Under the pieces are notes generated by a model. It had not been told where the DNA came from. It did not search any database and worked only from the letters and a program-made list of their open reading frames with translations. A stretch of 64,000 nucleotides of DNA from Mucilaginibacter gossypiicola. Lineage in GTDB: Bacteria > Bacteroidota > Bacteroidia > Sphingobacteriales > Sphingobacteriaceae. The stretch is taken from NCBI RefSeq assembly GCF_900110105.1, contig NZ_FOCL01000003.1, forward strand, positions 868,001 through 932,000, in the 5' to 3' direction. Both the position numbers and the translations under genes were made by a program. Positions 11,461-48,747 of this stretch are shown here, one piece after another; within the stretch, counting starts at the first letter, position 1, and every line of letters begins with the position of its first letter.

Positions 11461-12174
11461 TTATAATGATCGTTTAGTGTCGCTGTTGTCTGTTACCTGT
11501 TTAAAAAACACCCATACCTCGCCCTTTCGCGTGCCGGGCACACCTTCCTGGTATTTTTTCATCAACCTGTTCCAATCGTTTACCCGCGGATTGTTTTCGA
11601 TGGTTTTAGGATTAAGGTCATCAAGCTTTTTGCCTTTCGGGATACTGATCACCAGCATCAGGCGGCGCCCGTTTCTGAACACCAGTAATTGCTGAAAACC
11701 TGCATTACAAAAACCTTTAGAAACCTCGGGCCAGTTTTTAAACTGGCTGGCGTGGTAATCAATATATTCCTGCTGCAGGCGTTCATCGGCAACCAGGTTT
11801 GCCGTTAGTATAATATTATCCCATTGCTTAGCAATGCCATTTGCACCGCAATGCTGCGTTCGGTTAAAATCATAAAAGGGGCTGCTATAAACCGTAACCT
11901 GGCATGAGGGATATGCTGCGCGAGCACTTTTTTGGATGAATGTTGCGTTTAAATGCTTACCGTAAACAATGAGATGGTTATCCCAACGGTAAACAGCCGA
12001 AGCCGGTAGCCCCTGCTTACGGGCAATATTCAATAACGCGGTATAATTGAGCTGTTTACCTTGCGGACCCGTCACTTCAACAATGGCATAAGGATTTGAA
12101 GTTGCCTCTACATGAAATGCAGGCAACAATAAAACTACCGTGAGCCAAACTATATATGCTTTTAATATTTTCAT
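11461..12174 (-). CDS. Secreted L-rhamnose mutarotase-like protein with extra N-terminal domain
   Basis: 237 aa. A signal peptide (about residues 1-25, ending HVEATS) is followed by an unfamiliar domain (about 27-115), then a C-terminal half that resembles the RhaM/DUF718 fold. The pattern EYIDYHASQFKNWPEV matches the EYxxRHxxIWPEL region of RhaM, so the His there is the candidate catalytic residue. LLVFRNGRRLMLVISIP, VNDWNRLMKKYQE and a C-terminal GEVWVFFKQV complete the dimeric alpha/beta-barrel pattern. Classical RhaM is about 104 aa and cytosolic, so this version is roughly doubled and exported. It overlaps the GH141 gene by ATGA, so it may interconvert anomers of freshly released deoxysugars in the periplasm. 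The N-terminal half may be a diverged second ferredoxin-like unit. Confidence 0.7.
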   Translation of the reverse strand: MKILKAYIVWLTVVLLLPAFHVEATSNPYAIVEVTGPQGKQLNYTALLNIARKQGLPASAVYRWDNHLIVYGKHLNATFIQKSARAAYPSCQVTVYSSPFYDFNRTQHCGANGIAKQWDNIILTANLVADERLQQEYIDYHASQFKNWPEVSKGFCNAGFQQLLVFRNGRRLMLVISIPKGKKLDDLNPKTIENNPRVNDWNRLMKKYQEGVPGTRKGEVWVFFKQVTDNSDTKRSL

Positions 12175-25496: not shown

Positions 25497-27332
25497 TTAG
25501 TAATTACTTGTTTTAAATGATTTGATATAGAAAACGGCTTGCTTTGCGGCTTCCCCGGCGTTTGGCCGGTCGAAATCCTGATCCGTAGGTGTATCTGCAT
25601 CCGGGAACCTTCTGATATCCCCGGTACGGAATACCACCCTGTTTACGCTCAGCACCGGGGCAAAAAACAACCCGGTAAGCACATCCTTGCCGTTTACATT
25701 CACAGTGTAAAAGCGGGTATCGGTATTCAGCTTGATCACTATATGATACTGGATACCTGCCTCGTACTTCATAAAGTTTTTGTTGCGATACCCGGCTTTG
25801 GTCCTGAATTGCCCTGCCGAATCAAGCGTAAGCCTGATAGCGGCTGTACCTTTTTCGTCCTGAAATTCGATATCCAGCATACCGGTGTTGTTTTGTCCGG
25901 CTGTGATGGTGAAATCGGTCATTATTTTTTTTGAAACAGGTACAACACGCTCAGCTTTGGCAAAATCAAATGGGTCGTTGTCTTTTAGGGTTAAAGCGCG
26001 TTCGCCGTTGGAATCTTTATCGATACCTGCGGGTGCCCATTGCGGGCTGTAGGTGTTCCATTTCTCCAGTTCTTTACCGGCAGGCAGTTGATTAAAAACC
26101 TCGTTAGCATGCGCATCCGCTTTTTCGGTGACCGGTACCGGGATCGATGATACCCAGATATCCTCCTTATTCATGCTGTAGGTTACCCAAAGTTTACCAT
26201 CGGGCGGTATACCGTTCCCTTCTTCGATACCGCGTGTATATTGCGGCCCGTACGATTTATAAGCCCCGCCATAACGCATGGTCGTGATCTCGCCATTAAC
26301 TAAAAGCAGGTTGGTATAATCCAATCCATCTTTACTTACTGACAAAGCCAGCGGCCAGCGGAACTCCGAAGGGTTGTACACCGTAGCATATTTACCGTCG
26401 GATGTGCGCTGCCCCCAGATCTTGGCATTGGCAGTTACAAAACGTGGTGCACGGGCTGCGTTTGCAGGCCATGTCTTGCCGTTATCGGTACTGATGGCGG
26501 TAAGCGCGTATTTCCATAAACCAACCACGCGACCATCGGGCAGGTGATAAAAGTTGAATGCTTTGTAATCCTTATGCAGCGGGATCAAGGGATCTTTCCT
26601 GTCGGTTTCCTCAACCCATTGCATCATCATCAGCGGATTGGCCATCAGTTCATCACAAGCCTGTACAAAACCTTTATCCTTACTTGTTTTATAAAAAGGA
26701 TATGAGGTATTCTTTTCGTTCCATTTTGGGTTATAGTGGATGAAGTAGACCGGCCCGAATTTGCCGTTTGGTAAAACTTCACGTACCACGCGACCAATGC
26801 CCAAGCCATCATTCGGGTCATCATGACCATCTAAACAAATACCATAAAAACCCAATACCAATAAGCGTTTTGATTTGGAAGTGTAAAAACCCATCCGCTG
26901 GTGCATCACCGAATACAGGTCTTTCGCCACGCCGGGATGCCCCTCTTTAGTAGTACCATCGGGTATTTTATATTGAGGAAAAACCACGGTAGGTTTTGAC
27001 CATACTTCTCCATCTTTTGAATTCATGAGCAGGGTTTGGCCTGGTGGCACGCTTTCGCCCACTTTATCGCTCAGGTACTCAACATAAAATGTATTGTTCC
27101 AGTAAACCAGCATGGGCGCATGGTTGTAGGTAAAACCAAAGCCATCGGCCAGTTCAGGGTGTTCACGGTTAGCCCTGAAGATCTGCTCGCTGTGCACACC
27201 GATTACCGGGGTTAATTGCCCGTGATGATAATCGACATTGGCAACCGTATTGCCGCTGTAATGCACGGTATCCTGTGCATGGGCGCTATAGGCCATCGAT
27301 ATAAAAAACAATATGCTGATGAACTTATTCAT
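25497..27332 (-). CDS. Beta-propeller glycan-active protein with C-terminal LamG-like domain
   Basis: 611 aa, signal peptide MNKFISILFFISMAYSAHAQ. Residues about 45-410 form a propeller with BNR-like turns (NSKDGEVWSKPTVVF, STDNGKTWP, SKDGLDYTN). His-rich or acidic conserved-looking blocks are FTYNHAPMLVYW and ICLDGHDDPNDGLGIGR. Residues about 430-605 form a concanavalin-like jelly-roll (FTITAGQNNTGMLDIEFQD, FDRPNAGEAAKQAVFYIKSF). Databases usually label such proteins exo-sialidase. The propeller families GH145 and PL42, which act on rhamnose-capped glucuronate, are real alternatives, and I cannot separate these from sequence alone. The start codon lies inside the end of the GH43-like gene's neighbour region: the two frames overlap by 8 bp (27325-27332). 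Confidence 0.6.
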   Translation of the reverse strand: MNKFISILFFISMAYSAHAQDTVHYSGNTVANVDYHHGQLTPVIGVHSEQIFRANREHPELADGFGFTYNHAPMLVYWNNTFYVEYLSDKVGESVPPGQTLLMNSKDGEVWSKPTVVFPQYKIPDGTTKEGHPGVAKDLYSVMHQRMGFYTSKSKRLLVLGFYGICLDGHDDPNDGLGIGRVVREVLPNGKFGPVYFIHYNPKWNEKNTSYPFYKTSKDKGFVQACDELMANPLMMMQWVEETDRKDPLIPLHKDYKAFNFYHLPDGRVVGLWKYALTAISTDNGKTWPANAARAPRFVTANAKIWGQRTSDGKYATVYNPSEFRWPLALSVSKDGLDYTNLLLVNGEITTMRYGGAYKSYGPQYTRGIEEGNGIPPDGKLWVTYSMNKEDIWVSSIPVPVTEKADAHANEVFNQLPAGKELEKWNTYSPQWAPAGIDKDSNGERALTLKDNDPFDFAKAERVVPVSKKIMTDFTITAGQNNTGMLDIEFQDEKGTAAIRLTLDSAGQFRTKAGYRNKNFMKYEAGIQYHIVIKLNTDTRFYTVNVNGKDVLTGLFFAPVLSVNRVVFRTGDIRRFPDADTPTDQDFDRPNAGEAAKQAVFYIKSFKTSNY

Positions 27333-28275
27333 GTTTAGCTCCTTCGATTTGCCCGGCTGCCTTTAAAAGCTGCGCAAGCTGTTTCTTAGTGACTTTAAAT
27401 ATGGTACCGTGCTTATGCCCTACGGGTACACTCACGCTATCGGCCAGGTCTGTAAAAGTTTTAAAGTCGGTTGTGCGCATAGCGCCATATCTTTTTAAGC
27501 GGTACGAATCATAATAGATGAGCCAGTTATCGCCTGCTTTGGTCATGCTCGGGCCTTCGCTATAGGGTTCGGTAAACCTTGGCGTATAGTTACTGTAAGG
27601 GCCTAAAGGATTGTTGCTGAAGGCCACAAGGATATTGCGGTTTGGCCGGGTGTTATCCTTCATTACCAGCACGTAATCATTTTTGGCCCGCTTCACAATC
27701 TCAGCATCAATCACACTAAAACCCGGATCAAGGAAAAGCTTTGAGGGACTGAAAGTTTTAAAATCTTTAGTAGTAGTGTAGTACAGGCGATGGTTATTGT
27801 TCTCATCTTCCTGCCCCTTCGGAAAACGAAAAGGTACAGTAGAAGCCCAAACGATGATAAAATAGTTATTTTCATCATCATAAAATAACTCCGGTGCCCA
27901 GGCATTCACCGCGGTAGGCTCGTTAGCCATTACTTCAATATGCTCTTCGGCCGACCAATGGATCAGGTCTTTTGAACTGGCATAACCAATGCCTTTATCG
28001 TTTTTCCAGCCGGTTGTCCATACCAAATGATACGTACCATCAGGTCCCTGAGCAATGGATGGGTCGCGCATTATCTTTGCATCGCCAACTTCGGGTTTAA
28101 TGAAAATGTGGTCGATAGCATTCCAGTGATAAGCATCATTGCTATACAAAAAGCGCAACCCCTCATTTGCCGGTTCATGAAACGACGTAAAAAGGTACAC
28201 GCTTTTGCTGACCCTGCATGAAAACATCAACGCAATAGCTAATAATAGGGTGATATGTTTAATTGTCCTTTTCAC
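27325..28275 (-). CDS. GH43-like five-bladed propeller lipoprotein
   Basis: 316 aa with a lipobox-type signal (LLLAIALMFSC, Cys about residue 20), so probably an outer-membrane lipoprotein. The five-bladed propeller carries the three acidic positions expected of clan GH-F: RDPSIAQGPDG (base Asp), FSVIDAEIV (modulating Asp) and PYSEGPSMTKAG (acid Glu). VWTTGWKNDKGIGYASSKD is typical of one GH43 subgroup. Likely alpha-L-arabinofuranosidase or beta-galactosidase type activity, not resolvable here. Starts directly after the GH140 stop codon with no gap. Confidence 0.75.
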   Translation of the reverse strand: MKRTIKHITLLLAIALMFSCRVSKSVYLFTSFHEPANEGLRFLYSNDAYHWNAIDHIFIKPEVGDAKIMRDPSIAQGPDGTYHLVWTTGWKNDKGIGYASSKDLIHWSAEEHIEVMANEPTAVNAWAPELFYDDENNYFIIVWASTVPFRFPKGQEDENNNHRLYYTTTKDFKTFSPSKLFLDPGFSVIDAEIVKRAKNDYVLVMKDNTRPNRNILVAFSNNPLGPYSNYTPRFTEPYSEGPSMTKAGDNWLIYYDSYRLKRYGAMRTTDFKTFTDLADSVSVPVGHKHGTIFKVTKKQLAQLLKAAGQIEGAKHE

Positions 28276-29661
28276 TTATATCGCGTCAATAATGAGCACC
28301 CAGTCGTTACCGTTTGATACTTTACCGGGTGGTTTAAATTTGATTGTTTTAGCTTTCGCGAAGGTTCCGATAGCGGTAGTTTGCCCGTTGCGCGGGTTAT
28401 ACCAGGATGCTTTTAGTTTTGAACCCTCCAGTTTATCGGCATTAATATTGATCTGCACACCGGTATAGGTATATACAAACGCGTAGTTTTTGCCTCGGGT
28501 GGCGATCAGCCTGTTATATTTCTCGCCATTGTTACCTGCAATTAATGATTGGTCAGGTACACGATCCAAATACGGGCGTGATAGCATCAGTTTTTTCAAA
28601 TAAACCATCTGTTTTGCACCCGGATCGTTAACCGAATTGTACCAGTAGCCTTTTGAGCCGTAAGCACTGCCTTTATCTGTTGGCTTGTGCATTTGCATTA
28701 CGTCGTTATCGCCATAAGTATATCCGCAGGCACCTGCAAAAACCGACCAGTATCCATATCGCCTTACGTCGGCGGCAGTCCAGCGGGGCAATTTAATGTT
28801 GTGCAGGCCGTGAGGGATTTTTTCGTAAGATGGCTCGGCATCAAGTGTTGGTTTTATGGGAGATAGGTTGTAATCCGTTTGCACATAGCGCCAATTGTCT
28901 TCGCCATACTTTAAGTCTTTCTTCGAGGTGTCCTGCGCATAGGTGCGATGGCCCGACTGAAAGCAATTAAAATCTAACCAGCTTTCATTATGAAACCATT
29001 TTGATGATTGTGTACGGCCGCGGGGATGATAGGTAATGAGGTGTGTTCCGTCCACATCGTGCAGCGTATTACCTATAGCATTCCAGGTTTTTAACGAATC
29101 TGAACCGGCTATATCACCGCCATTCATCCAGATCACATTCGGACGGTCGCGGTATCTTTTCGCTAAAAATTCGGCGTATGCTTTCGCTTTTTCCGCACCG
29201 ATATGGCTTTCTTTTACTACCGATCCCCAAACGGGTACCAGTGCAACGTATAATCCTTTTTCAGCGGCTTTGGTAATGATCCAGTCGATATGATCCCAAT
29301 AATCATACTCGTTTCCTTCACCAAAAGTATTGCCAGGGGTTGTTTTAGGTTGAGCGATATTCTTATTGCTCAAGGCCGAGTCACCATAAGCATTGGTTTC
29401 TTTAATACTATGCACCACCATCACCTGGATCACGTTGAAACCCTGTTTACTGCGGATATCGAGGTATTGCTCGGCTTCTTCCCTTTTCAATTTAGAGAAC
29501 AGCAGCCAGCCGGTATCGCCAAGCCAAAAAAATGGCTTATCACCGGCCATGAAATAGCGATGGTTGTTGGATATGCTTAAATGGGGCATGGTTGTTTCAT
29601 TGCTTTTAAATGCAAAAAACAAACAGGCAATGGCAATTAGTATGGTAGATTTTTTAAGCAT
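28276..29661 (-). CDS. GH140 apiosidase (DUF4038-type TIM barrel)
   Basis: 461 aa, signal peptide about residues 1-19, then the characteristic opening HRYFMAGDKPFFWLGDTGW. Catalytic candidates are D183 in NVIWMNGGDIAG and E276 in KPTLDAEPSYE; in the characterised family member BT_1012 the catalytic pair is an Asp and a Glu in the same blocks. A further family block is YWSVFAGACGYTYGDN, and the C-terminal beta-domain ends WVLIIDAI. GH140 hydrolyses the linkage between apiose and the galacturonan backbone of RG-II. It is the strongest single indicator of an RG-II-type substrate in the window. It starts after a repeat-filled 327-bp gap, so internal transcription start or processing is possible. 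Confidence 0.88.
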   Translation of the reverse strand: MLKKSTILIAIACLFFAFKSNETTMPHLSISNNHRYFMAGDKPFFWLGDTGWLLFSKLKREEAEQYLDIRSKQGFNVIQVMVVHSIKETNAYGDSALSNKNIAQPKTTPGNTFGEGNEYDYWDHIDWIITKAAEKGLYVALVPVWGSVVKESHIGAEKAKAYAEFLAKRYRDRPNVIWMNGGDIAGSDSLKTWNAIGNTLHDVDGTHLITYHPRGRTQSSKWFHNESWLDFNCFQSGHRTYAQDTSKKDLKYGEDNWRYVQTDYNLSPIKPTLDAEPSYEKIPHGLHNIKLPRWTAADVRRYGYWSVFAGACGYTYGDNDVMQMHKPTDKGSAYGSKGYWYNSVNDPGAKQMVYLKKLMLSRPYLDRVPDQSLIAGNNGEKYNRLIATRGKNYAFVYTYTGVQININADKLEGSKLKASWYNPRNGQTTAIGTFAKAKTIKFKPPGKVSNGNDWVLIIDAI

Positions 29662-29988: not shown

Positions 29989-32900
29989 TCAATTACGGCT
30001 CAACCACAAAATAGCGGCCCCGCTTCCCTGTCCTTTAATTTCCGTATTAACTGCACCTTTTACCGTTTCTGTACCGGGTAAAAGCTCACCCGTTTTAGGG
30101 TCTATCCATTGTGCTTTGTAGCTGATACCAGTTGATAGATCAAGGTGGATCCCACCGCCGTTGCTGTAAACTATGTATCCTTTTGATGAAGCCAGCCCCC
30201 ATTGATCTTTAGGCGAGCCAGGCAGATCAGTTGGTTTCATGCTGCTTGCATCTGCCAGGAAAGCTTTATTGGTGTTAGCTGGCAGCACAGGTAATGAACC
30301 ACCGGCTATGAATACCGCCCAGCCAAAATGGTCATAATCATCGGCAGAAAACAGTACTGCTTTATCCGGGTATTTGGTGCGATATTCGTGTACCGCACGG
30401 TAAACCTGTTCAAATGACGCTGCCTTTGGTTTAAAGATGCGTGCTTGCTGGCGCGGAGCCAGACTTTGGCCACCGATTGGTTCATAAGCCGTTCCGTTGG
30501 CCTGGTAATACCAGTAACGGATATCGATGACGTTAATCACCGAAGCCGTTGCAGGGTTAGCAAGAATAGCATCCTGCACATCCTTGGTGGCACTCAAACC
30601 TATGATCTGTTTCTTTTTATGGGTGGTTTCCCACTGTTTAATAGTTTCAACCCAAAACTTCATAAAGTGCAGCGGACCGGTAAATTCTGCCCCTATCTGC
30701 TGGATCACCCCGGTATTACCGGCGAAGTTGTCCATACATTTATTGATGTAGGCAATATGCAGCTTGCGCCTTGCCGGGTCGGTTTCGTCATAAAACTGCT
30801 CGGCCATAAACTGGCGCTTATCGCCGGCGTAAGGTACAGGCTCGGGGAAACCCGTGCCGTTGATATTGTTTGCCGTGCGCCACGGAAAATCGGTGTAATG
30901 CGCACCTGCTTCAATAATGTTATGCTGAAAATAGTTTTGGTGGACCAGAACCAGGCCTTTCTGATCGGCCAGATCGGCAAACTGTTTCAGGCGGTTCCAG
31001 TACCAGGTGTTGTATTTGGTCAAATCGTATTTGCTCAATCCATCGTAGGCCAGTTCCTTACCGCTGCGGGCGAATGGCAGCTCGTAAAATGGTGCCCAAA
31101 CATCGCCATCCATCCTGCGAATACGCTCGTGATCATCACGGCGGCGATCATACCATAAACCGTAATTATGCTCAAATACCACGATATTATCTTTTCGCAT
31201 CCAATCGGTAACTGAATTTAAATCGTCAGTTAAACCGGTACCTGTTTGACCGGGTACCCAGCGGGAGATGGCCGGTTTGGCTTCCTTTTCTGTATAATCG
31301 GGATGTACGGTGCCGCTCCACCATGGGGTTTCAAAATGCCTGCCTGTTAATACCACATTGCCACGGGTTAACCAACCGTTGGTAACGGCCATCTTTGGAG
31401 CTAATGCAGCAGTTGTAGTATTTTTATATCCTATTTCGTCAATATTTTTAGCATTTGCAGATGAAGTATTAATCGAATTTCTTTTAGATGCTTGATCTAT
31501 CCAGTTGCTGATAGTTACTGCCGGTTTACGTGCAGCGGCCATTAACTCTGCTGCCTGCTCAACTGTCGGGCTGCTTGAAGGTTCAGTAGCCGGATATAAG
31601 ATATCGGCTTGTTTGCTTACATCTTTATCTAATCGGTTAGCCAGTTGCGCATAGTAAAAACTTCTTGGGCTTATGGTGCTGTTGGGTGTGCTCCAATAGC
31701 CATCGCCTGCAAATTGCGCCCATGTACCAAAAGCCCAGTTTTGAGCAGTTGGCGGCTGGTAATTATCAACCCGCGCTGCGGTACAATTCCAAAACATACT
31801 GTTGGCAGCGCTCCATCCGGCACCCTGCCCGTCCTGTCCGCGATTCATATAGCTTAGTGGCTGACCATCTATGTTTGCGATATCAAATAAAACACCTGAG
31901 GCCCAGCTATCAATGCCGCCACTAAAACCCAGCGAACCTACCGACATACATTGCACAAAGGCATTTGGCCCCGGTGCGCAATAACCAGTGGCAAAATCAT
32001 GAAAGCCCTGCTCAGAATATAAACGCTGAAAAAGATTTTGTCCGCCCATAGTAAGGAATGTATTACGGCGTTGCCCCCCTATTTCCGAAACCGGCGCAAG
32101 CGATTTACAATCCTCAACTGTAACGCGGTTTCCGGTAGTACCAACAAATACCGCCGAACCTGCAAAATGCTCAAATGTTATCTGGCGTACCCAGGCATCA
32201 CTCACATTTTCTATGGTGATTGCCATCCAGCGATGGGCTTCATCTTTGGCATTAGCAGTGTTATATGCAGATTGTAGTTTTAAGTTTTCGACACCTACCT
32301 GGGCAATTCTTCCAGGCCATTGGTAGGTTGCTATTAAGCCACCGCCATAAGTGGTATCCAAAGCGGTAGTTAAAGGCGCGTCAAGGGTTATCTTATTGCC
32401 ATCTATCGATATTACTTTGCGATCCCAGTAAATGTCGCGTTCTCCGGGTTTCCAGGCTAAGGCGGTTAGGTCGCCGCCAAAATGATCAGTTTTGATGGTA
32501 CTGATCCATACCTGCGTACTTGGGCGATGGATAAAAACCAGATCACCGGTTTTAATATTTGCGCCATCTGCAATATGCAGCGTATTGGCATTTACCGGTA
32601 CATAAGCATCGGTAATTTTAATTTCTTTGGATGTTTGCCGGTCATTTTTTCCGGTTACATGTATAAAAGTCTCTCTGTCTGTTCCTGCAGCGAATAATAT
32701 GGTGCCATTAGCAGCCATCCCGCTTCCTCGTAAAACCACGCCCGAAGCATTAATTTTAAGGCTACCGTTTACCTGGTATGTGCCTTTGTCAAGCAATACC
32801 GCTCCGCGAAAACCATCTTTGTCGGCAGGTAAACCAGCCACATAATCTAAAGCAGCCTGGATCCTCAATGTTGCGTCACCTGCTTTTACTGGCACTACAA

Positions 32901-33144
32901 CTTTTACGGGCACAAATGGGATAGGCTTTTCGGATGCCATATATCCGCAATATGAATAATCAGGAATGCGGTCGCCATTGGGGGCTACCGCGTAAGTCAG
33001 TTTGCCGTTTTTATCGGCGGCAACAGGCGGTTGTGGTTTAGGGGCTTTTTTCTTATCCTGTGCAAATAAGGGGGAATGCATAAGCATCCCCCCAGTCATT
33101 AAACCAACCCAAATATAAATCCTTGTAAACCTCAATTCCCGCAT
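29989..33144 (-). CDS. Beta-helix plus barrel protein, DUF6298-like, uncharacterised
   Basis: 1051 aa with signal peptide ending SPLFAQ. Residues about 85-500 look like a pectate-lyase-type right-handed beta-helix: GAVLLDKGTYQVNGSLKI, ITIENVSDAWVRQITFEHFA, NRVTVEDCKSLAP. A linker follows, and from about residue 600 there is a (beta/alpha)-rich domain with acidic residues (WMRKDNIVVFEHNYGLWYDR, IQQIGAEFTGPLHFMKFW, VLFSADDYDHFGW), then a small beta-sandwich end (AQWIDPKTGELLPG). I recall the C-terminal half as DUF6298. The combination of a polysaccharide-binding or cleaving helix with a possible glycosidase barrel is unusual. No function is known to me; it is one of the best candidates for a new pectin enzyme here. 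Confidence 0.65.
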   Translation of the reverse strand: MRELRFTRIYIWVGLMTGGMLMHSPLFAQDKKKAPKPQPPVAADKNGKLTYAVAPNGDRIPDYSYCGYMASEKPIPFVPVKVVVPVKAGDATLRIQAALDYVAGLPADKDGFRGAVLLDKGTYQVNGSLKINASGVVLRGSGMAANGTILFAAGTDRETFIHVTGKNDRQTSKEIKITDAYVPVNANTLHIADGANIKTGDLVFIHRPSTQVWISTIKTDHFGGDLTALAWKPGERDIYWDRKVISIDGNKITLDAPLTTALDTTYGGGLIATYQWPGRIAQVGVENLKLQSAYNTANAKDEAHRWMAITIENVSDAWVRQITFEHFAGSAVFVGTTGNRVTVEDCKSLAPVSEIGGQRRNTFLTMGGQNLFQRLYSEQGFHDFATGYCAPGPNAFVQCMSVGSLGFSGGIDSWASGVLFDIANIDGQPLSYMNRGQDGQGAGWSAANSMFWNCTAARVDNYQPPTAQNWAFGTWAQFAGDGYWSTPNSTISPRSFYYAQLANRLDKDVSKQADILYPATEPSSSPTVEQAAELMAAARKPAVTISNWIDQASKRNSINTSSANAKNIDEIGYKNTTTAALAPKMAVTNGWLTRGNVVLTGRHFETPWWSGTVHPDYTEKEAKPAISRWVPGQTGTGLTDDLNSVTDWMRKDNIVVFEHNYGLWYDRRRDDHERIRRMDGDVWAPFYELPFARSGKELAYDGLSKYDLTKYNTWYWNRLKQFADLADQKGLVLVHQNYFQHNIIEAGAHYTDFPWRTANNINGTGFPEPVPYAGDKRQFMAEQFYDETDPARRKLHIAYINKCMDNFAGNTGVIQQIGAEFTGPLHFMKFWVETIKQWETTHKKKQIIGLSATKDVQDAILANPATASVINVIDIRYWYYQANGTAYEPIGGQSLAPRQQARIFKPKAASFEQVYRAVHEYRTKYPDKAVLFSADDYDHFGWAVFIAGGSLPVLPANTNKAFLADASSMKPTDLPGSPKDQWGLASSKGYIVYSNGGGIHLDLSTGISYKAQWIDPKTGELLPGTETVKGAVNTEIKGQGSGAAILWLSRN

Positions 33145-33350: not shown

Positions 33351-35012
33351 TTATTTTAAAGTAGCCAGTTTCTTTTCGCCTTTAGCGGCTACTGTATTTA
33401 AATATACTTCGATATTGGTATAACCGCCGCCATTTTTTGCAGGTAGCGCCGAGTCTTTACCATCTTTAGGGTTAAGGCCGTGAGCCAGTTCCCAATCGTC
33501 AGGCAAACCGTCATTGTCCGAATCTTTGTAAGGCGTGCCTTTATATTCAGGATAGCCGCCAACCTGCCATGGAGCAGTGATGATACCCAGTTTGTATGAG
33601 TCTTTAGGTAATTTACGCACTTTAAACTGGTACGCAGTATCGGTTTCCATGTCTTTGTAAGTGATTTTACCGGTACGTACCTGCTCGGTGATGCGAACGT
33701 CAACCGGGTCGCGTTTCGGCAATGTTGCACCGGCGTTTGCCACAACAAATTTGAAAGCATCTTTTGCCGATAGGATCGTCATTGAAGGCATCGGGAACGG
33801 AACATCTGATTTCATATAATCCTTGTACTGGCCGGCATCAGGTAATTCTTTACCACCCGGGCCTTCAACCTGGATACCACCGTTCCAAGCATCTTTGGTT
33901 ACTTCAGGATAGCCTTCCATGATGTTACCTGATGCATAAACACGACCGAATACTTTTTCTTTCAACTTGCTCCTGCCCGATTCCGGTTTCAGGATGCGGT
34001 GACCCACCGGTTCATCTTTTGGTGTAACCGGACCTGGTTTAAAGTAGTTATTGATCACATTGTAATTGGTAGTATAATCGCCGCCATCCATTGAACGGTG
34101 GTGCCAGTTAAATACCACGTTATTTACAAAGTTGTATACACCATTCCAACCAACTGATGGGTTACGGCCGGTGTTATCTGCCCAAAGGTTACGCATCAAT
34201 GAGCTGTTTTCGCCGCCGGTAGTTGAACCGAAAGCGTGGTTCCAGTAATCCAATGATTCGGAGTAGATACAGTTTTGGATGGTGATATTCACAGTACCCA
34301 GTTTCTCTTCTTTTGAGCCATCGCCCGGATCAAACATGTGACGGTACATCGAAAAGTTTTCGTCCAGGCCCCAGCTTGCAGATACGTGATCGGCAATAAT
34401 GTTACCAACAGGATTACCGCCCAAAGCATCATCCCTGCGACCAACATTGGTTTCGCCACGGCGGAAACGCATGTAGCGGATCACAACGTCATGCGTGTTA
34501 ACCCAAAATGATTCGCCGGCAACGCAAACACCATCGCCCGGTGCTGTTTGTCCTTCAATGGAAATATACGGAGCCCTTACAATGATCGGCGTTTTGATCC
34601 GGATGATACCAGAAACATTGAATACTACGATACGGGCACCGCCTTTTTCGCAGGCTTCGCGTAGTGTACCCGGGCCATTATCAGCCAAACTGGTAACTAC
34701 ATATACCTTACCACCACGACCACCAAAAGTAAATTTACCTCCGCCTTCTGCACCAGGGAATGCCGGGATCTTAGCCTGCGGCAAATCTGTTGGGCGCGCA
34801 GCCCATGGTACGTATACTTTGCCACGCCTTTGATCGGCCTGGATAATCGGCAGGGCAACAGCCCATGCCGAATCTGAACGACGGGTAGCCTCTTTCATCA
34901 AAGCTTCACTCTCTGCTTTAACCTTTTCCGGCACTTCAGGGTATTGGGCAAAAGCCGGTTTAGCTAAACCCAATGCCGCTGCTACTAAAAATAAAGCTGT
35001 GTGTTTTTTCAT
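33351..35012 (-). CDS. Pectate lyase, PL1 family
   Basis: 553 aa with signal peptide MKKHTALFLVAAALGLAKPAFAQ. The Pel-C-type beta-helix starts at AFPGAEGGGKFTFGGRGGKV and continues with VTSLADNGPGTLREA, ISIEGQTAPG and VVIRYMRFRRGE. The Ca2+-binding Asp residues are in RRDDALGG and IADHVSASWGLDENFS. A C-terminal thrombospondin-3/EF-like calcium loop, DSDNDGLPDDWELAHGLNP, follows the helix. It should cut the homogalacturonan part of the substrate by beta-elimination. It lies 64 bp after susD, consistent with a role as the initiating endo-enzyme of the locus. Whether surface or periplasmic is unclear; no lipobox. Confidence 0.9.
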   Translation of the reverse strand: MKKHTALFLVAAALGLAKPAFAQYPEVPEKVKAESEALMKEATRRSDSAWAVALPIIQADQRRGKVYVPWAARPTDLPQAKIPAFPGAEGGGKFTFGGRGGKVYVVTSLADNGPGTLREACEKGGARIVVFNVSGIIRIKTPIIVRAPYISIEGQTAPGDGVCVAGESFWVNTHDVVIRYMRFRRGETNVGRRDDALGGNPVGNIIADHVSASWGLDENFSMYRHMFDPGDGSKEEKLGTVNITIQNCIYSESLDYWNHAFGSTTGGENSSLMRNLWADNTGRNPSVGWNGVYNFVNNVVFNWHHRSMDGGDYTTNYNVINNYFKPGPVTPKDEPVGHRILKPESGRSKLKEKVFGRVYASGNIMEGYPEVTKDAWNGGIQVEGPGGKELPDAGQYKDYMKSDVPFPMPSMTILSAKDAFKFVVANAGATLPKRDPVDVRITEQVRTGKITYKDMETDTAYQFKVRKLPKDSYKLGIITAPWQVGGYPEYKGTPYKDSDNDGLPDDWELAHGLNPKDGKDSALPAKNGGGYTNIEVYLNTVAAKGEKKLATLK

Positions 35013-35076: not shown

Positions 35077-36894
35077 TTATTGAAGCGGATCAAACGGCCC
35101 ACCCCAGGTGTTGTTTTGCTGTAAATTGACATTGTTTAACAATGCAGCCGCAGGGATGCCGAAAAAGTAATCGCCCGCCTGAACTGCGATATTGTATGAA
35201 TCCAGCGTTTTGGTTTTAACGGTGAACGATGCACTGTACAGTGCATCCAATGACGCAGCTGCAGAAGCATCCCTTGTGCCGGTGATATAATCTTTAGCGC
35301 TTGCATTATTGTTAAGCGTAACGGTGAGGCCTGTTCTTTTTGAGCCGTTTAATGTGCTTTCAAGCAGTTTACGGCGGCGAAGGTCCCAATAGCGTTTACC
35401 TTCAAAAGCAAACTCAATTTTGCGCTCATTCATGATAGCCGTGATCATCTGATCGGGGCTCATGCCTGCATCTAAACCGTACTGGTTATCGGCACCGGCC
35501 TCAATCCCGGCACGTTTCCTGATAGCTGCAATATTGGTATAGCCTGTAGTAACATTACCCAATGCAGCAGCACATTCGGCCTGGTTTAATAACACCTCTG
35601 CATAGCGGATCTCCATCCAATCGGTACCAACATAAGGCGCGTTTGCTACGCTAACATTTGGGTCGATAGCTTTACGCAGATAAAACCCGGAGTTGGTTGC
35701 TGATGCCGGCTCAGTAGTTTTAACACCCGAGCCGTCTGCCTTGTTGTAGTAGAAGTAAGTCCACAGGCGGTACGAGGTGTTACCGTTTATAGGCCAGTTA
35801 CAACCGTTATAGGCAATAGTTTTGTTAAACCTTGGGTCGCGATTGTCAAAAAACTTAGAATCGTCATAAGCATATTTTGTTGATGCGCCAGGTGCTTTAC
35901 CATCAAGCATAGGGTATGATTTTACAATATCCCAGGTAGGCTGGTTTGAACCGCCCTTAGTACCTAAATAAGCGGGACGGGTTGCATTGTCATAAGTGTT
36001 GTTGTTTTGGTTTTGATCGGTTGTTGATGTGTTATAACCAGTAACCAAAATAGCTTCCGGGTTACTGCTGCTTTCGGTAAACCACATGTTATCATATGAA
36101 GGATTTAAACCGTAATTATTGGCAGTAAGTATCTGCATTGCCTTATCATTGGCATCAGCAGCAGTTTGCCAGCGGGCGGCATCGTTGCTGGGATTAAACT
36201 GAGGACTTGCATAGGTTAACAATACCCTACCTTTAAAAGCAGCAGCGGCAGCTGACGAAATACGGCCATAGTCACTTCCGCTCCATTTAGCAGGCAAATA
36301 TTTTATACAGCTGTCCAAATCGCTTACAATTTGTTTAAAGCACTCTGAAGTTTTGTTACGAGGCAGTAAAGCCGCGTTCTTGGCGTCCTGGCCTATAGCA
36401 TCTAACGGCTTTAATACCAGCGGAACCCCGCCATACAACCTTACTAAATCAAAATACCTGAAAGCCCGCCAAAAATAAGCCTGCGCTTTATACCTGTTTT
36501 TTGTTCCTGCCGGTAAAGTACTGGCATCAAGGTCCTGCAGGGTTTGATTGATATTACGGATCCGCCCGTAATTATTGCTGATGTTTACTGATGTACCGAT
36601 ATCACCAACAGTTTCGATAGTAACTGTTCCTTTTACGTAGGCGTTATCGCTGTAAAATTCGTCGCATTTATCGCCGCCGCCGCCAATAGCGCCGCCGGTG
36701 TCGCCAAACCAACCGGGTTGGTTAGCTGTGTACAGGTAATTGATATTTAAGATAGCTACCGTTGAGTCATTAAATACCTGGCTGGGGGTGCTATGGGTAA
36801 GATCCTCTTTATCGAGCACCTTTTTACAGTTCGTAAACAGGGCTGATACGATCAAAGCTGCAAATATGGTTTTAAATAATTTCATGTCTTTCAA
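35077..36894 (-). CDS. SusD/RagB family surface glycan-binding lipoprotein
   Basis: 605 aa with a lipobox at IVSALFTNC (Cys about residue 23). Tetratricopeptide-like helices are seen in KNRYKAQAYFWRAFRYFDLV and GGVPLVLKPL, and the C-terminal signature is MNERKIEFAFEGKRYWDLRR. Length is in the upper range of the family. A glycine-rich loop (GGAIGGGGDKCDEF) is distinctive. It would sit over the SusC channel at the cell surface and bind pectic oligosaccharide. Start: Met1 is used here, though Met4 (MKLFKTIF) is equally likely. 3 bp after susC. Confidence 0.95.
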   Translation of the reverse strand: MKDMKLFKTIFAALIVSALFTNCKKVLDKEDLTHSTPSQVFNDSTVAILNINYLYTANQPGWFGDTGGAIGGGGDKCDEFYSDNAYVKGTVTIETVGDIGTSVNISNNYGRIRNINQTLQDLDASTLPAGTKNRYKAQAYFWRAFRYFDLVRLYGGVPLVLKPLDAIGQDAKNAALLPRNKTSECFKQIVSDLDSCIKYLPAKWSGSDYGRISSAAAAAFKGRVLLTYASPQFNPSNDAARWQTAADANDKAMQILTANNYGLNPSYDNMWFTESSSNPEAILVTGYNTSTTDQNQNNNTYDNATRPAYLGTKGGSNQPTWDIVKSYPMLDGKAPGASTKYAYDDSKFFDNRDPRFNKTIAYNGCNWPINGNTSYRLWTYFYYNKADGSGVKTTEPASATNSGFYLRKAIDPNVSVANAPYVGTDWMEIRYAEVLLNQAECAAALGNVTTGYTNIAAIRKRAGIEAGADNQYGLDAGMSPDQMITAIMNERKIEFAFEGKRYWDLRRRKLLESTLNGSKRTGLTVTLNNNASAKDYITGTRDASAAASLDALYSASFTVKTKTLDSYNIAVQAGDYFFGIPAAALLNNVNLQQNNTWGGPFDPLQ

Positions 36895-36897
36895 AGT

Positions 36898-39800
36898 TTA
36901 GAAGCCTAAGTTTAAACCAAAAGATACTGTACGTAAGTTGGGATACACCCCAAATGGTGATGAAATATCACGATAATGATCAGGGAACGGGTTTACAAAG
37001 TTGATAGGGTTTGTAGCTACCACATAGGCCCTGATGCTTGACATGCCCAGCCTTTTGGTTAAACCGGCAGGCAAGGTGTAACTTAAGTTAGCGCTGGAGA
37101 TATTCCAGGTGAACGGACTAACAAACCAGAAATCACTTGTAACGCTTACGTCATCTGAGTAATACGGATCGGGATATTTAGCATTTGTGTTAGTTGGCGT
37201 CCAGTGATCGGCCCAAAAAACCGGCCTGTTCTGATTAGCTGTGGCCTGTTTAATAGCTGCGCTCTCAATTGATTGCGTACCACCCCAACTCATGCCCATT
37301 ACCACATTTAAACTCAAAGTTTTATATGCGCCGCCAAAGTTTAAACCAAGATTGTAGTGGTTTGATGCTTTATGGCCTAAATAAAACTGATCGTTAATAT
37401 CGTTTTGTTTGATGATACCGTCGCCGTTTTTATCAACATAGTTGATCATGCCCGGAGCAGGTGTATAACCGAAGATCTTAACATTTTGAGCACCGCCTGC
37501 CGCTGCAGCCCTCTGGGCTATGATCGCATCGGCATCTGCTTGTGTACGGATAATACCAAGCGATTTGTAACCCAGTGTACCGGGATCGCCTGATTTACCT
37601 GTAAGGTCCTGAATAGTACCAACCTGGGCTGCAGCTATATCATACTTGATGTATTTATTATCGCTCCATGAAAAGAACGGGCTGAAACTATAGCTAAAAT
37701 TTGATCCGATCTTATCTTTCCAGCTTGCAGAGATCTCATAACCGAAAGTATTGATAATACCATAGTTTTCGGCAGATGGTGCTGCACCGATAGTTACCGG
37801 AACAGAAGTATTTAATGAAGCAAGCATGTCATAACGGTGCTCCCAGAAATAATCTGCAGAAATTGATAAGCGATTATTCAGGAAAGCAGCATCCAGACCG
37901 TAGTTTGTTTTTAAGTCATGGTCCCAGGTTAAATTAGCATTAGGAATGGCGATATTTAACAACGCACCAAGGCCCCTGTCGCCATTGCCACCGAAAACCG
38001 CCCCGCCTTTATTACCGGTACCAAACTGGTAGTTAACTGCATATAGATATGATGGCGTGTTATCAGAGCCCAACAAACCAACCGAACCCCTGAATTTCAA
38101 CATATCCACAAAGCTCACTGATTTAAAGAAGTTCTCTTTTGAAACTACCCAACCTGCCGAAGCCGAAGGGAAATATCCCCATTGATGGCCCGGTGCAAAG
38201 TTGGTATTGGCATCGGCCCTCATGGCCAGTTCAACCAGGTATTTATCAGCATAAGCATAATTCACCCTGCCTGCAACAGCCTTACGACCGTATTCTTTTA
38301 CCAGCGTGGCCTGGTTTGATGACTGATCGCCTGTAGTAAAGGTTTGGTTATCTTTTCCGCCTACAATCACACCGTCGGCTTCTGCTGCCACACCTTCGCT
38401 GTATGATTCATACTGCTCATACAATGCAAGGGCCGTAATTTCATGCGCACCAAACCGTTTGTGGTAGCTAAGGTTGGCGTTAAACTGGTAGTTATCGGCC
38501 AATGACGGTGTAAGACGAACCTTATCACCATTTTTTATAGCTTTTACACTTACCACAGTTCCTCCCGGAATGTGATTATTGTCGCCTTCACCCGAATATT
38601 GGTTATAATAGAATGTTGAGCCATATTGCTTGTTAAAAGCATTATTAATGTTACGGTTATAGCTTACATTGGCAGTTAAGCCGCTAATGCCCGGAATTTC
38701 GTAACTCAAATTGGCTAAACCATTAAATACAGTATTATTGTTACCTGTGTAGTTGTTAGAATTTTGAACGGCAAAGAAGTTAAGGTTATCGTTATTGCTG
38801 GTTCCTAAATATACAGGGTGCCCGTCGATAAAATATTTTTGCCATGGTGGTGCCTGGTTAAGCGACAGAAAGTCGTTGTCCGGGCTTTCGGTGGTGCTTG
38901 AAAGCTTGTACCAGTAAATTTTGCTTTTGGCAAGGTCTTCGCTCAATGACAATGACAATTTTAAACCTTTTGCCACCTTTGCATCAACACTGGCCCTAAA
39001 GCCGAAACGGTTGGTATTTACCCCTTTAAAGTTTGAGTTTTGGTTTACATAGTTTGCACCTGCAAAATAAGTAACCTTATCATTACCACCTGTTATGCTA
39101 AGCGCATTCCTGCTCGTTACCGCCGGCTTAAATGCCTGCTCCAGGAAATTTTGATTATTGTTTTTAAAGTACTCAAGCTCATCAGGCGTATAATATTTTA
39201 AGTCTTTATTGCTTAAATCGCCGTTGATGTAACCTTCGGGAGTAATAGTATGGTTATATCGTGTTTGCTCAATATCATTAAGATAAGTAGCCATTTGAAC
39301 GCCCGACATCATTTTAGGCAATTGAATGGCATCAGCAACACCTACTGATGAACTGAAACTCACCTTTGGCCCACCTGCCTGGCCACGTTTAGTTGTTACA
39401 ACGATAACACCGTTTGCACCTAAAATACCATAAATGGCTGCGGCAGCATCTTTCAATATCGAAATGTTTTCCACCTCGCTTTGGTCAAGCAGGTTAAAAT
39501 CGGCTTCGGTACGTTGTACACCGTCAATGACATATAATGGTGTTGTACTACCGCCATTCTTTGCCAGGAAAACAGGGTTACGGATAGTGATGGTTCCGCT
39601 TTGGCCTGGCCTTGCAATACCACCGGTAACACTTACCGCAGCATTGGTACCGCGAAGCGCAGCGGCAAGGTTAGTTGTAGGTATATCCTGGATAGTTTTC
39701 ATATCCACCGCGGCAACCGCACCTGTTAAGTGAACTTTCTTTTGTGTGCCGTAACCTACCACCACAACCTCATCAAGGGCATTTTGTGATGGTAACATTT

Positions 39801-40083
39801 TGAAATCGGCATTCATTTCGCCAATTTTCAGCGTTTTTTCCTGGTAGTTGTATCCAAGAAATTTAGCACCAACTACAATGGATTGCAGGTTAGTAGCTTT
39901 AATAGAGTATTTACCATCGGCATTGGTAATAGTACCTGTGTTGCTGCCTTTTACCTGTATGGCAACTCCCGGCAAAGGGGCACCTTTTTCGTCCACAACG
40001 GAACCCGTTATGTTACGATCCTGGGCTTTTAGCGCACTGCCCAAACACAGCAACACCGAAAGTAAGAGGAAAAGTTTTCTCAT
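36898..40083 (-). CDS. SusC/RagA TonB-dependent outer-membrane transporter
   Basis: 1061 aa. Signal peptide (1-20), carboxypeptidase-D-like regulatory domain (GSVVDEKGAPLPGVAIQVKG), TonB box region (NALDEVVVVGYGTQKK), plug (GAVAAVDMKTIQDIPTTNLA, VDGVQRTEADFNLL, SILKDAAAAIYGILGANGVI) and a 22-stranded barrel ending NLRTVSFGLNLGF with the usual aromatic C-terminus. It lacks an N-terminal STN domain, so it is not of the sigma/anti-sigma signalling type; this agrees with AraC control of the locus. It imports the oligosaccharides captured by SusD. Confidence 0.96.
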   Translation of the reverse strand: MRKLFLLLSVLLCLGSALKAQDRNITGSVVDEKGAPLPGVAIQVKGSNTGTITNADGKYSIKATNLQSIVVGAKFLGYNYQEKTLKIGEMNADFKMLPSQNALDEVVVVGYGTQKKVHLTGAVAAVDMKTIQDIPTTNLAAALRGTNAAVSVTGGIARPGQSGTITIRNPVFLAKNGGSTTPLYVIDGVQRTEADFNLLDQSEVENISILKDAAAAIYGILGANGVIVVTTKRGQAGGPKVSFSSSVGVADAIQLPKMMSGVQMATYLNDIEQTRYNHTITPEGYINGDLSNKDLKYYTPDELEYFKNNNQNFLEQAFKPAVTSRNALSITGGNDKVTYFAGANYVNQNSNFKGVNTNRFGFRASVDAKVAKGLKLSLSLSEDLAKSKIYWYKLSSTTESPDNDFLSLNQAPPWQKYFIDGHPVYLGTSNNDNLNFFAVQNSNNYTGNNNTVFNGLANLSYEIPGISGLTANVSYNRNINNAFNKQYGSTFYYNQYSGEGDNNHIPGGTVVSVKAIKNGDKVRLTPSLADNYQFNANLSYHKRFGAHEITALALYEQYESYSEGVAAEADGVIVGGKDNQTFTTGDQSSNQATLVKEYGRKAVAGRVNYAYADKYLVELAMRADANTNFAPGHQWGYFPSASAGWVVSKENFFKSVSFVDMLKFRGSVGLLGSDNTPSYLYAVNYQFGTGNKGGAVFGGNGDRGLGALLNIAIPNANLTWDHDLKTNYGLDAAFLNNRLSISADYFWEHRYDMLASLNTSVPVTIGAAPSAENYGIINTFGYEISASWKDKIGSNFSYSFSPFFSWSDNKYIKYDIAAAQVGTIQDLTGKSGDPGTLGYKSLGIIRTQADADAIIAQRAAAAGGAQNVKIFGYTPAPGMINYVDKNGDGIIKQNDINDQFYLGHKASNHYNLGLNFGGAYKTLSLNVVMGMSWGGTQSIESAAIKQATANQNRPVFWADHWTPTNTNAKYPDPYYSDDVSVTSDFWFVSPFTWNISSANLSYTLPAGLTKRLGMSSIRAYVVATNPINFVNPFPDHYRDISSPFGVYPNLRTVSFGLNLGF

Positions 40084-45229: not shown

Positions 45230-47629
45230 TTAACGCAAACTTTCAATCACAACACTACCCGCCTGCAACCCATCGGCAGCAGCAGTAACAGTAATCTTCC
45301 CACCAACAGCTTTAGATTGAATAATAGCCAGCCCCAAACCATTAAACAAATGGTGCTGATCAGATACAAACGGATCCAGATCCGTTTGCGAACCATTGTC
45401 TACAGCTTTCAGCACGCCTTGCCCGGTTACTTTAAACTTTACCAGTTGATTAGCATCAGGCACAGGAACGTTGTTTTTATCCAGAACAGATACGGTGATA
45501 TACGACAGGTCTTTACCATCGGCTTTAATTTTACTCCTATCGGCCTTAAGCTGTATTTTGTAAGGCTCGCCTGCTGTAACTACCTGCGTGGTCATAACCA
45601 CTTTGCCATTACGACGGGATACCGCTTTTAATACCCCCGGCTCATATTTAACACGCCACATCACATGCAGGTCATCGCCGGTTTTCTTTCTTACCCCTAT
45701 TGATTTACCGTTTAAAAATGCTTCTACTTCATCCGCATTATTGTAATAGGCCCAAACATCAATCAGCTGCCCGGGTTTCCAGTTCCAGTGCGGTAAAAGG
45801 TGCAAAACGGATTTGTTTGTCCATTCGCTTTGGTACATGTAATAAACATCCTTGGGGAAACCGGCCAAATCAACAATACCAAAGTATGAGCTTCGGGCCG
45901 GCCACAGGTACGGGGTGGGTTCACCAATGTAGTCGAAGCCGGTCCACACAAAAAGGCCCGAAAGAAAATCATGCGTCTTGATGATCTTCCATGTTTCCTC
46001 GTGCGTAGAGCCCCAGTAGGCAGATACGTTATCGTATGATGATACCGTAAAATCGGCATTGCCATCCTTCAACGGGGTTTTACCATCCTTTGGCCAGCGC
46101 CTGATGCTGTCTGACGGCATATCATAATGCCCCCTTGTTGCCAATGCCGACATGTTTTCGGTTCCGATAAACTTTTGGCCGGGATAGTTTTTCTGAAAAT
46201 CGGCGTATACTTCCTGGTGATAATTTAAGCCAACCAGATCAAGCGCGCCCGACTGGTAAATGAAGTTCTTTTTAGGGTCGGCATCGCTCAGGGCCGATGT
46301 AACTGGTCGTGTGTTATCCAGTTGCTTTACAATTTTTACCAATTCGCGACCAATGCTCACGCCTGTGCTGTCAAACTGTTCCCTGATCTCGTTGCCAATG
46401 CTCCAGGCAAAAATGGACGGATGGTTCCGGTCGCGCAAAACCTGGTCTTGCAGATCTTTCACATGCCACTCGTCCCAGTCCTCGTGGTAATCGTGTTTGC
46501 TTTTTTTCTTCTTCCACATATCAAAAGCTTCGTCCATCACCAGGAAACCCATTTTATCGCACAGGTCAAGCAGTTCGGGTGCCGGTGGATTGTGTGATGT
46601 ACGGATGGCATTGCAGCCCATATTTTTTAAGATCTGCAATTGGCGCTCAATAGCACGTGTATTTACAGCCGTACCTAAAGCACCCTGGTCATGATGCAGA
46701 CAAACGCCAAGAATTTTCATCGGCTCGCCATTCAGTCTAAATCCTTTATCGGCATCGAAGTTGAAATAACGGATACCTGTGGTGGTCGTATAATCATCTA
46801 TAACTTTATTACCAGCAATTAACTGCAGCTTTACTTTGTACAGGTTAGGATGATTTATTGACCATAGCTTAGGGTTCATAACCCTAATGTTCTGTTGAAT
46901 TACAGTATCAATTACTGAAGATGTAACTGTACCCACAACCTTACCCTGATCATCCAAAACCGAAGCCCTGAGCGTTAATTTTGAACCTACCAAACCCGCT
47001 AATACCGTACGAATATTAATCGCTGCTTTTTGATGATCAACCTGCGGCGTAGTTATAAATGATGACCATTGCGGCAGATGGATTTTATTGGCAGTGGTTA
47101 ACCAAACATTGCGGTAAATGCCCGACCCGGTGTACCAGCGTGAATTAGGCTGATCGCTGTTGTCAACCCTAACTGCGATCACATTTTGCTGCGCTCCAAA
47201 TTTGAGGTAAGGCGTCAAATCATACCTGAAAGAGATATAACCGTTAGGCCGCTTGCCTAAATAATGGCCATTGATCCAAACTTCGCTGTTGTGAAAAACG
47301 CCGTCAAAATCAATCAAAATAGTTTTAGTTTTTGACGATGCAGGGATCATAAAACTTTTACGATACCAACCGATACCGGCAGGCAGCCCGCCCTCGGCCT
47401 GCGTGGTGGGATTTTTACTGTCGAATTCCCCTTCGATACTCCAATCATGCGGAAGATCAAGTTTTCGCCAACGATTGTCATCAAATTTCACCTGGCTCGC
47501 AGCCGTGTCATCGCCTAAAAAAAACTTCCAGTCTGCGTTAAAACTTTCTGTTTTGCGGACGTTTTGGGCGGATGCAAAACCCGCCGTAAAAAGTACTAAA
47601 CACAACGTATATAAATAACGGAGCCTCAT
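45230..47629 (-). CDS. GH2 beta-galactosidase-type enzyme with DUF4982 region (799 aa)
   Basis: Signal peptide MRLRYLYTLCLVLFTAGFASA; jelly-roll about 30-180, Ig-like 185-290, TIM barrel 295-600. Acid/base E414 in FAWSIGNEIRE; nucleophile E491 in KFIGTENMSALATRG. After the barrel comes the DUF4982 segment (LLPHWNWKPGQLIDVWAYYN) and a C-terminal Ig-like domain (LKADRSKIKADGKDLSYITV). This architecture is the standard exo-GH2 of Bacteroidota loci, typically beta-galactosidase. Its start overlaps the stop of the propeller gene upstream (ATGA, 47626-47629). Confidence 0.9.
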   Translation of the reverse strand: MRLRYLYTLCLVLFTAGFASAQNVRKTESFNADWKFFLGDDTAASQVKFDDNRWRKLDLPHDWSIEGEFDSKNPTTQAEGGLPAGIGWYRKSFMIPASSKTKTILIDFDGVFHNSEVWINGHYLGKRPNGYISFRYDLTPYLKFGAQQNVIAVRVDNSDQPNSRWYTGSGIYRNVWLTTANKIHLPQWSSFITTPQVDHQKAAINIRTVLAGLVGSKLTLRASVLDDQGKVVGTVTSSVIDTVIQQNIRVMNPKLWSINHPNLYKVKLQLIAGNKVIDDYTTTTGIRYFNFDADKGFRLNGEPMKILGVCLHHDQGALGTAVNTRAIERQLQILKNMGCNAIRTSHNPPAPELLDLCDKMGFLVMDEAFDMWKKKKSKHDYHEDWDEWHVKDLQDQVLRDRNHPSIFAWSIGNEIREQFDSTGVSIGRELVKIVKQLDNTRPVTSALSDADPKKNFIYQSGALDLVGLNYHQEVYADFQKNYPGQKFIGTENMSALATRGHYDMPSDSIRRWPKDGKTPLKDGNADFTVSSYDNVSAYWGSTHEETWKIIKTHDFLSGLFVWTGFDYIGEPTPYLWPARSSYFGIVDLAGFPKDVYYMYQSEWTNKSVLHLLPHWNWKPGQLIDVWAYYNNADEVEAFLNGKSIGVRKKTGDDLHVMWRVKYEPGVLKAVSRRNGKVVMTTQVVTAGEPYKIQLKADRSKIKADGKDLSYITVSVLDKNNVPVPDANQLVKFKVTGQGVLKAVDNGSQTDLDPFVSDQHHLFNGLGLAIIQSKAVGGKITVTAAADGLQAGSVVIESLR

Positions 47630-48747
47630 TTTGTTTTACTTTTCTTAACAGGCGGAGCAACAAAGTTCAGCTCGCTTTTACCCAGATCTTTTGACACAGC
47701 AACCGCTATACCGCGCTGATCGGCTTTGTTTACGGCGCAATAAAAGTGATAAACTATGCCTTTATACTTCACCACGCATGATTTGTGGGCGAACATATGA
47801 TCATAAGGCTCAGATGATTGGATGAGCTTCTCTCCTATCCAGTCTGTCCAGTGCACCAGATCATACGAGCAGGCAAAGCGGTTAAACACGCCCGAATCGC
47901 CGGTTTTCCAAAATGCTCCGAAATAAAACATGACATACACATTCCCTATCTGCTGAATATATGGATCGCCGGTAATGCCATCGCCGTGATTCAATACCGG
48001 GTCTTTGCCGAAACGTTTCCAATGCAGCATATCGTCAGATACGGCCATACCAATCCGTTCGGCACCGCGTTTTTTGTTTACACTATCGCCATTGGCATTA
48101 TAATACATAATAAAAGGGTGACCGGTCAGCTTCTTTTTATCCCAGATAATCGTTTGCTTGTATTGCGTATGGTTATCCCACCAGCTAACATCTTTATCGA
48201 TGCTTGACAGTACGGGATGATCCAATCCTCGCCATTCATGCGCAGTACCCGGATCCTGATCGGTAGAAGCTACGCTTATGGATAACAAACCTTTTTCATA
48301 CCCCTTACTTTGTCCGCCGAAATACGACAGCCAATACTTGCCATCATATTGCTGTAATTTGTACGAGCCTCCCCATTTATAATCCTGCAAGCCAACATAA
48401 CCAGCCTTTTGGTTATTATCCCAGCGTGTGGTATCATCAGAAAATGAGAGGATCCGGCCGCGGGTTTTCCAGTGCAGCAGATCTTTGCTATCGGCCAGCC
48501 ATGTTTCATAACCACGACCGTTAAAAATAATATAGCTCATATACCAGCTATCCCCCTGCCGAAAAACCATAGGACAATCGGCCTTCTGGCTATTATCATC
48601 GGACGATATCACCAGTCCGTACTTATACGGGGTTTTTACTTGCTCATAAATGTCTTTCATCACCTTTTCGGGCACCTCCTGTGCCTGCACCTTCAGCATT
48701 AAAAAAACATAAACTAAGAATGTGGATGATTTGAAAATGTATTTCAT
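47626..48747 (-). CDS. Five-bladed propeller glycosidase (GH43/GH32 clan-like)
   Basis: 373 aa, signal peptide ending LKVQAQ. Five-bladed-propeller signatures: KADCPMVFRQGDSWYMSYI, GYETWLADSKDLLHWKTRG, GKYWLSYFGGQSKG, GMAVSDDMLHWKRFG, DPYIQQIGNVYVMFYFG and SYDLVHWTDW. Acidic residues at the strand starts (Asp in ADCPMV, Asp in GDGITGDPY, Glu in SSEPYDHM) could form the catalytic triad. I could not place it in one CAZy family: GH43-, GH130- and GH32-like proteins share this look. It is translationally coupled to the GH2 gene downstream, so the two probably act in sequence. Confidence 0.6.
   Translation of the reverse strand: MKYIFKSSTFLVYVFLMLKVQAQEVPEKVMKDIYEQVKTPYKYGLVISSDDNSQKADCPMVFRQGDSWYMSYIIFNGRGYETWLADSKDLLHWKTRGRILSFSDDTTRWDNNQKAGYVGLQDYKWGGSYKLQQYDGKYWLSYFGGQSKGYEKGLLSISVASTDQDPGTAHEWRGLDHPVLSSIDKDVSWWDNHTQYKQTIIWDKKKLTGHPFIMYYNANGDSVNKKRGAERIGMAVSDDMLHWKRFGKDPVLNHGDGITGDPYIQQIGNVYVMFYFGAFWKTGDSGVFNRFACSYDLVHWTDWIGEKLIQSSEPYDHMFAHKSCVVKYKGIVYHFYCAVNKADQRGIAVAVSKDLGKSELNFVAPPVKKSKTK

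Follow-up and report, generated by a model that had tools for sequence, protein, structure and literature searches.

DUF6298, a helix-plus-barrel protein of rhamnogalacturonan II loci and a strong candidate for a pectin-digesting step not yet described

Rhamnogalacturonan II (RG-II) is the most complex plant pectin; its digestion is a benchmark for complex glycan breakdown, and the enzymes involved founded several CAZy families. In a 64,000-nucleotide stretch of Mucilaginibacter gossypiicola DNA (the window), a gene lying among RG-II enzymes encodes a large protein whose C-terminal half belongs to Pfam family DUF6298. Pfam gives no function for the family, and our literature search found no paper on it, raising the question of what the protein does in RG-II digestion. 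A sequence-only reading had proposed that a pectate-lyase-like helix and a glycosidase-like domain could make up a bifunctional enzyme for a linkage without an assigned family.

Architecture and neighbourhood of the DUF6298 protein

The open reading frame is real and not a chance frame. It has >577 relatives in species-level genomes, its dN/dS is 0.02–0.05 across both halves (0.03–0.05 in the N-half), as calculated from closer pairs because several dS values were saturated in another set of pairs, and residues 482–969 match PF19815 (DUF6298) over model positions 1–487 of 487 (E 2.6e-244), with 811.9 bits against a Pfam gathering cut-off of 28.1 bits. The N-half has no Pfam match. An AlphaFold2 model of the whole protein (pLDDT 81, pTM 0.82; 56 sequences) comprises a beta-helix, a linker, a TIM barrel, and a beta-sandwich (Table 1), and the C-half modelled alone gives a pLDDT of 84 and a pTM of 0.88. 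The model and the VIA fold matches bear out the helix and glycosidase-like barrel read from the sequence; the split guessed there (residues 1–560 and 600–1051) was nearly right, with the helix now at 48–504 and the barrel starting at 578. The barrel occurs together with the helix: apart from contig-edge and broken copies, every strong intact-frame DUF6298 match sits in a frame of ~1000 aa or longer. The signal-peptide-like segment ends near ...LFAQ, and a lipobox is found in 4 of 56 homologues. Mucilaginibacter sp. SMC90 shows 95–96% protein identity to the window, and the closest relative (L036:10001–13174) carries an in-frame 21-bp tandem duplication in the helix (AYNTANA repeated).

Table 1. 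Features of the DUF6298 protein and its locus, in window coordinates
Feature	Position	Strand	Remarks
DUF6298 helix-plus-barrel protein, whole CDS	29989..33144	-	ATG start, 1051 aa
Signal-peptide-like N-terminus, residues 1-29, without lipobox	33058..33144	-	sequence; putative periplasmic export
N-half right-handed parallel beta-helix, residues 48-504, PL29-like superfamily	31633..33003	-	AlphaFold2 model, fold and profile matches
Glu354	32083..32085	-	139/139 fusions; helix-only relatives mostly Ile/Thr/Pro
Ile411	31912..31914	-	site of His kept in 27/27 helix-only relatives, 0/139 fusions
Linker, residues 505-577	31414..31632	-	weaker constraint, dN/dS about 0.06-0.17
C-half TIM barrel, residues 578-969, DUF6298 core, GH140/clan GH-A-like	30238..31413	-	
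Glu820	30685..30687	-	end of beta4, clan GH-A acid/base position; 137/138
C-terminal beta-sandwich, residues 970-1051	29992..30237	-	resembles PF12904 domain that follows GH140 barrels
PL1-type pectate lyase	33351..35012	-	adjoins DUF6298 in 78/80 related loci
GH140 apiosidase	28276..29661	-	BT_1012-like, 3kzs E 3.9e-132
GH43-type glycosidase	27325..28275	-	
BT_1020-type propeller enzyme, RG-II marker	25497..27332	-	matches 5mqr residues 23-611, E 4.7e-240
Alpha-D-galacturonidase equivalog	58214..60982	-	NF049878, above cut-off
GH137-type part of NF049877 (beta-L-arabinofuranosidase)	47626..48747	-	
GH141-type protein	12171..14093	-	PF21231
SusD and SusC glycan importer pair	35077..40083	-	

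Judged by the co-localised RG-II-specific enzymes, the gene sits in a locus for RG-II utilisation. In particular, the window encodes GH141, GH78, GH2, GH95, a BT1020-type propeller, GH43, GH140, PL1, and SusCD, and the DUF6298 gene does lie between the PL1 and GH140 apiosidase genes, as had been noted. The propeller half of BT1020 is a separate 611-aa protein in Mucilaginibacter and part of a single ~1100-aa protein in Bacteroides-like genomes. Two DUF3826 proteins are encoded in the locus (17747–18472 and 40188–40853); BT1022, a DUF3826 protein, showed no RG-II binding in a published test (PMC7939467). An ORF with a TTG start (16609–17892) overlaps a DUF3826 gene by ~145 bases, and the BNR protein that it encodes probably starts further in. 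Beside the locus, a DHDPS-type aldolase adjoins a sodium:solute symporter (42380–44872), the pair being a candidate for the catabolism of 3-deoxy-2-keto acids (Kdo, Dha) released from RG-II.

Association with RG-II loci across genomes

DUF6298 is near-exclusively associated with RG-II loci. The marker used was the BT1020-type propeller, which we take to indicate RG-II utilisation from its match to 5mqr and the action of BT1020 on RG-II side chains; BT1020 is GH142/GH143 in CAZy. Of the 151 genomes in the family, the 40 with DUF6298 are also the 40 with the propeller (Fisher 1.7e-37, calculated without phylogeny correction, so that independence is overstated for related genomes), and GH28, a general pectinase family, occurs in 85 of the 151. 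A phylum-wide draw of 395 genomes contains 19 with DUF6298 and 21 with the propeller, with an overlap of 19. The genomes that have a propeller and no DUF6298 (G335 and G180) hold diverged propellers (43% and 37% identity, respectively) outside any RG-II cluster. For 60 genomes of a Bacteroides-like genus, the corresponding numbers are 18, 17 and 17. The co-occurrence is not operon linkage alone, because the two genes often lie far apart in this genus, frequently by tens of kb or more, in several cases by >70 kb, and by up to 150 kb. The RG-II context, which the sequence-only reading took from gene position, is now statistical as well.

The extra DUF6298 genome of the Bacteroides-like genus (G543), which lacks the BT1020 propeller, carries a 1176-aa ORF (L262:4264–7791) in which the N-terminal part of an RG-II alpha-D-galacturonidase is joined to the DUF6298 C-half; this fusion ORF is a natural deletion relic. 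In G585, where the propeller is present, both the DUF6298 gene and the regulator upstream of it are split into several frames (L263:1–11000), representing either a pseudogene or a sequencing error.

Across 80 related loci, including Planctomycetota MAGs (L074 and L092), the neighbours of DUF6298 are PL1 in 78, GH140 in 64, the BT1020 propeller in 63, and GH43 in 62. With PL1 so nearly constant beside it, DUF6298 may have its task at or close to the galacturonan backbone. In most Bacteroides-like genomes the order is regulator–PL1–DUF6298; in the published B. thetaiotaomicron RG-II locus, the first gene is BT0977 and the regulator is BT0981. A Bacteroides finegoldii record labelled as a plasmid (L032; NZ_OY725888.1) holds PL1–DUF6298 together with proS and other housekeeping genes and may be a chromosomal fragment.

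Folds and conservation of the barrel and the helix

The best VIA match of the C-half is GH140 8t9w (Z 19.3, 3.7 Å over 328, spanning 7–474 of the C-half), followed by BT1012 5msy (Z 18.6), with GH5 mannanases lower (Z 16–17.6). The C-half has the GH140-type layout, a TIM barrel followed by a PF12904-type beta-sandwich, and PF12904 itself is matched in the paralogue L120. GH140 (BT_1012, 3kzs/5msy; 8t9w) is thus similar in barrel and sandwich, with Z 18–19 over ~330, and is found in the same loci. The shared two-domain fold, the top VIA rank and the frequent GH140 neighbour could suggest that the C-half is a GH140 beta-apiosidase that has diverged but shares its Api linkage with the enzyme next door, but we consider this highly improbable: identity in the structural match is ~13%, the GH140 apiosidase profile PF13204 gives no match, DUF6298 being the sole Pfam match of the C-half at E up to 1, and a true GH140 next door would make the activity redundant. 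PDB sequence searches gave no match to the C-half, and hhalign of the C-half against 64 GH140 neighbours aligned the terminal sandwich exclusively. The link between barrel and glycosidases therefore runs through structure and an intermediate family, L137–L147 (about 480–570 aa, GH-A-like), rather than through direct GH140 profile comparison. Members of this family match the C-half over 375 columns with 98.8% probability, and their invariant NNE glutamate aligns with E820 in the profile comparison. The NNE follows beta4, beta7 carries no acid, and similarity to DUF6298 in Pfam is weak; from its sequences, L137–L147 looks like an unclassified glycosidase family.

Clan GH-A enzymes carry a Glu acid/base after beta4, where the DUF6298 barrel has E820; among 138 proteins, only the divergent paralogue L120 departs from this, having Gln instead. 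Retaining enzymes of the clan also carry a Glu nucleophile after beta7. At this strand, the alignment of the 138 proteins shows no invariant acid: D935 is present in 106, and position 938 is Asp in 91 and Glu in 9. Barrel conservation does not support a standard retaining mechanism, because beta7 lacks an invariant acid; an inverting mechanism, or a base placed elsewhere, is possible. The catalytic pair of GH140 is Asp187 (beta4) and Glu284 (beta7) (PMC4032388), whereas the C-half has E820 in place of Asp187 and no counterpart of Glu284, a further point against a diverged apiosidase; Glu replaces Asp at the beta4 site in 17% of PF13204 members (PMC4032388). Invariant residues line the C-terminal strand ends at beta1 (W608, W609), beta2 (W664, Y665, R668, D671, H672), beta3 (H741, N742, E745), beta5 (D858), and beta6 (W878), and D874 (beta6) is kept in 135 of 138. 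The C-half also differs from GH140 by the large loops, themselves conserved, that follow beta2 and beta3. Loops 662–685 and 744–776 show the highest conservation and are the least confident parts of the model (pLDDT <50), for which reason the putative barrel pocket is absent from the model.

The VIA matches of the helix are headed by alginate epimerase/lyases, with polygalacturonase, K1 capsule lyase, and BT1002 ranking below. Specifically, the AlgE mannuronan C5-epimerase/lyases (8ja4, 5lw3, 2pyg) include the best structural match (8ja4; Z 25.6, 2.8 Å, 263 residues), with 14–16% identity to the helix. PDB sequence searches gave weak helix matches (7chu, E 2.4e-4). Helix-only proteins of Bacteroidota, Paenibacillus, and Streptomyces are homologous along the entire N-half. 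A remote profile match links the N-half with these proteins and with PL29/BT3328 (E 1.6e-6 here, 1.6e-11 in L074), and an N-terminal PDFSYxGY motif and an HDF/GPN region are common to them. The NCBIfam match to the BT3328 hyaluronan lyase family is weak, however, at 26.7 bits against an NF058554 cut-off of 1100 bits. Furthermore, all 27 aligned helix-only relatives, PL29-like proteins among them, have His at position 411, where the 139 DUF6298 fusions have Ile (109), Val (17), Leu (6), Thr (6), or Tyr (1). Since this signature His is lost and Glu354 is invariant instead, the helix, as read from the alignments, does not appear to retain an intact PL29-type lyase site and would be a binding module or a seat of new chemistry. 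D412 was considered as a replacement catalyst and dropped, being Gly in 15 of 139 fusions.

A truly bifunctional protein, in which the helix is a second catalyst (a lyase or hydrolase on the uronate backbone) beside the glycosidase barrel, would use a re-tooled helix site of E354, R359/R360, H382, and E302/H304. E302, H304, R359, and R360, like E354, are present in 139/139 fusions and H382 in 134/139, the N-half is under the low dN/dS given above, and the top fold neighbours of the helix are polyuronate-acting lyases and epimerases and GH28 enzymes. We nevertheless consider this reading unlikely and do not favour it: the His of every helix-only relative is missing from all fusions, and conservation alone fits a binding surface too. 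The alignments bear out the conserved-looking acidic residues of the sequence-only reading with invariant ones, but its bifunctional enzyme, which would call for two independent active sites, gains no such support, as the helix lacks the His of its relatives and no beta7 nucleophile is conserved in the barrel.

The same two losses could instead be read as signs that both halves are non-catalytic and form a periplasmic binding or chaperone-like RG-II protein. This is improbable, since E820, near-invariant and located where a catalytic residue would be, and the dense invariant set of polar strand-end residues listed above, from W664 to W878, go beyond what binding would require.

Proposed role of the DUF6298 protein

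We favour a periplasmic RG-II enzyme in which the barrel is the catalyst and the retooled helix holds the galacturonan backbone, and give this reading a probability of about one in two, with true bifunctionality next. In B. thetaiotaomicron, RG-II breakdown has been placed in the periplasm (PMC9843283), and we infer that the DUF6298 protein, exported by a signal peptide free of a lipobox, would act there as well. The N-half, PL29-like and without its signature His, would bind and position the alpha-1,4-galacturonan backbone of RG-II, which the adjacent PL1 would cut. The C-half, in which a GH140-type beta-sandwich follows a glycosidase barrel resembling clan GH-A, would cleave one backbone-proximal linkage, with Glu820 as the probable general acid/base. 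The beta7 variability, the low-confidence conserved loops and the constraint on the N-half, which is as strong as in an enzyme, weigh against this reading.

The nearest characterised families are GH140 and PL29, and the protein lacks defining features of each. No close characterised relative emerged from the PDB, Pfam, NCBIfam, or the literature searched, in keeping with the sequence-only reading; its description of the protein as the clearest uncharacterised component of the operon is fair, except that the C-half already carries a Pfam family name. The RG-II association, the GH140-like fold, and the constant helix fusion of DUF6298 were not found in the literature searched. A tentative proposition, to which we give less than even odds, is that DUF6298 is a new GH family, GH-A-like and without the usual beta7 nucleophile, joined to a helix with its own altered chemistry and carrying out an as yet unassigned RG-II step that nearly all RG-II users share.

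All this makes the DUF6298 protein a strong candidate for a hitherto undescribed step of pectin breakdown. The helix swap, in which His is lost and Glu354 gained, and E820 of the barrel point to residues worth mutating. DUF6298 accompanies RG-II loci from one Bacteroidota family to another and lies beside PL1 even in Planctomycetota, which makes it a concrete and testable gap.
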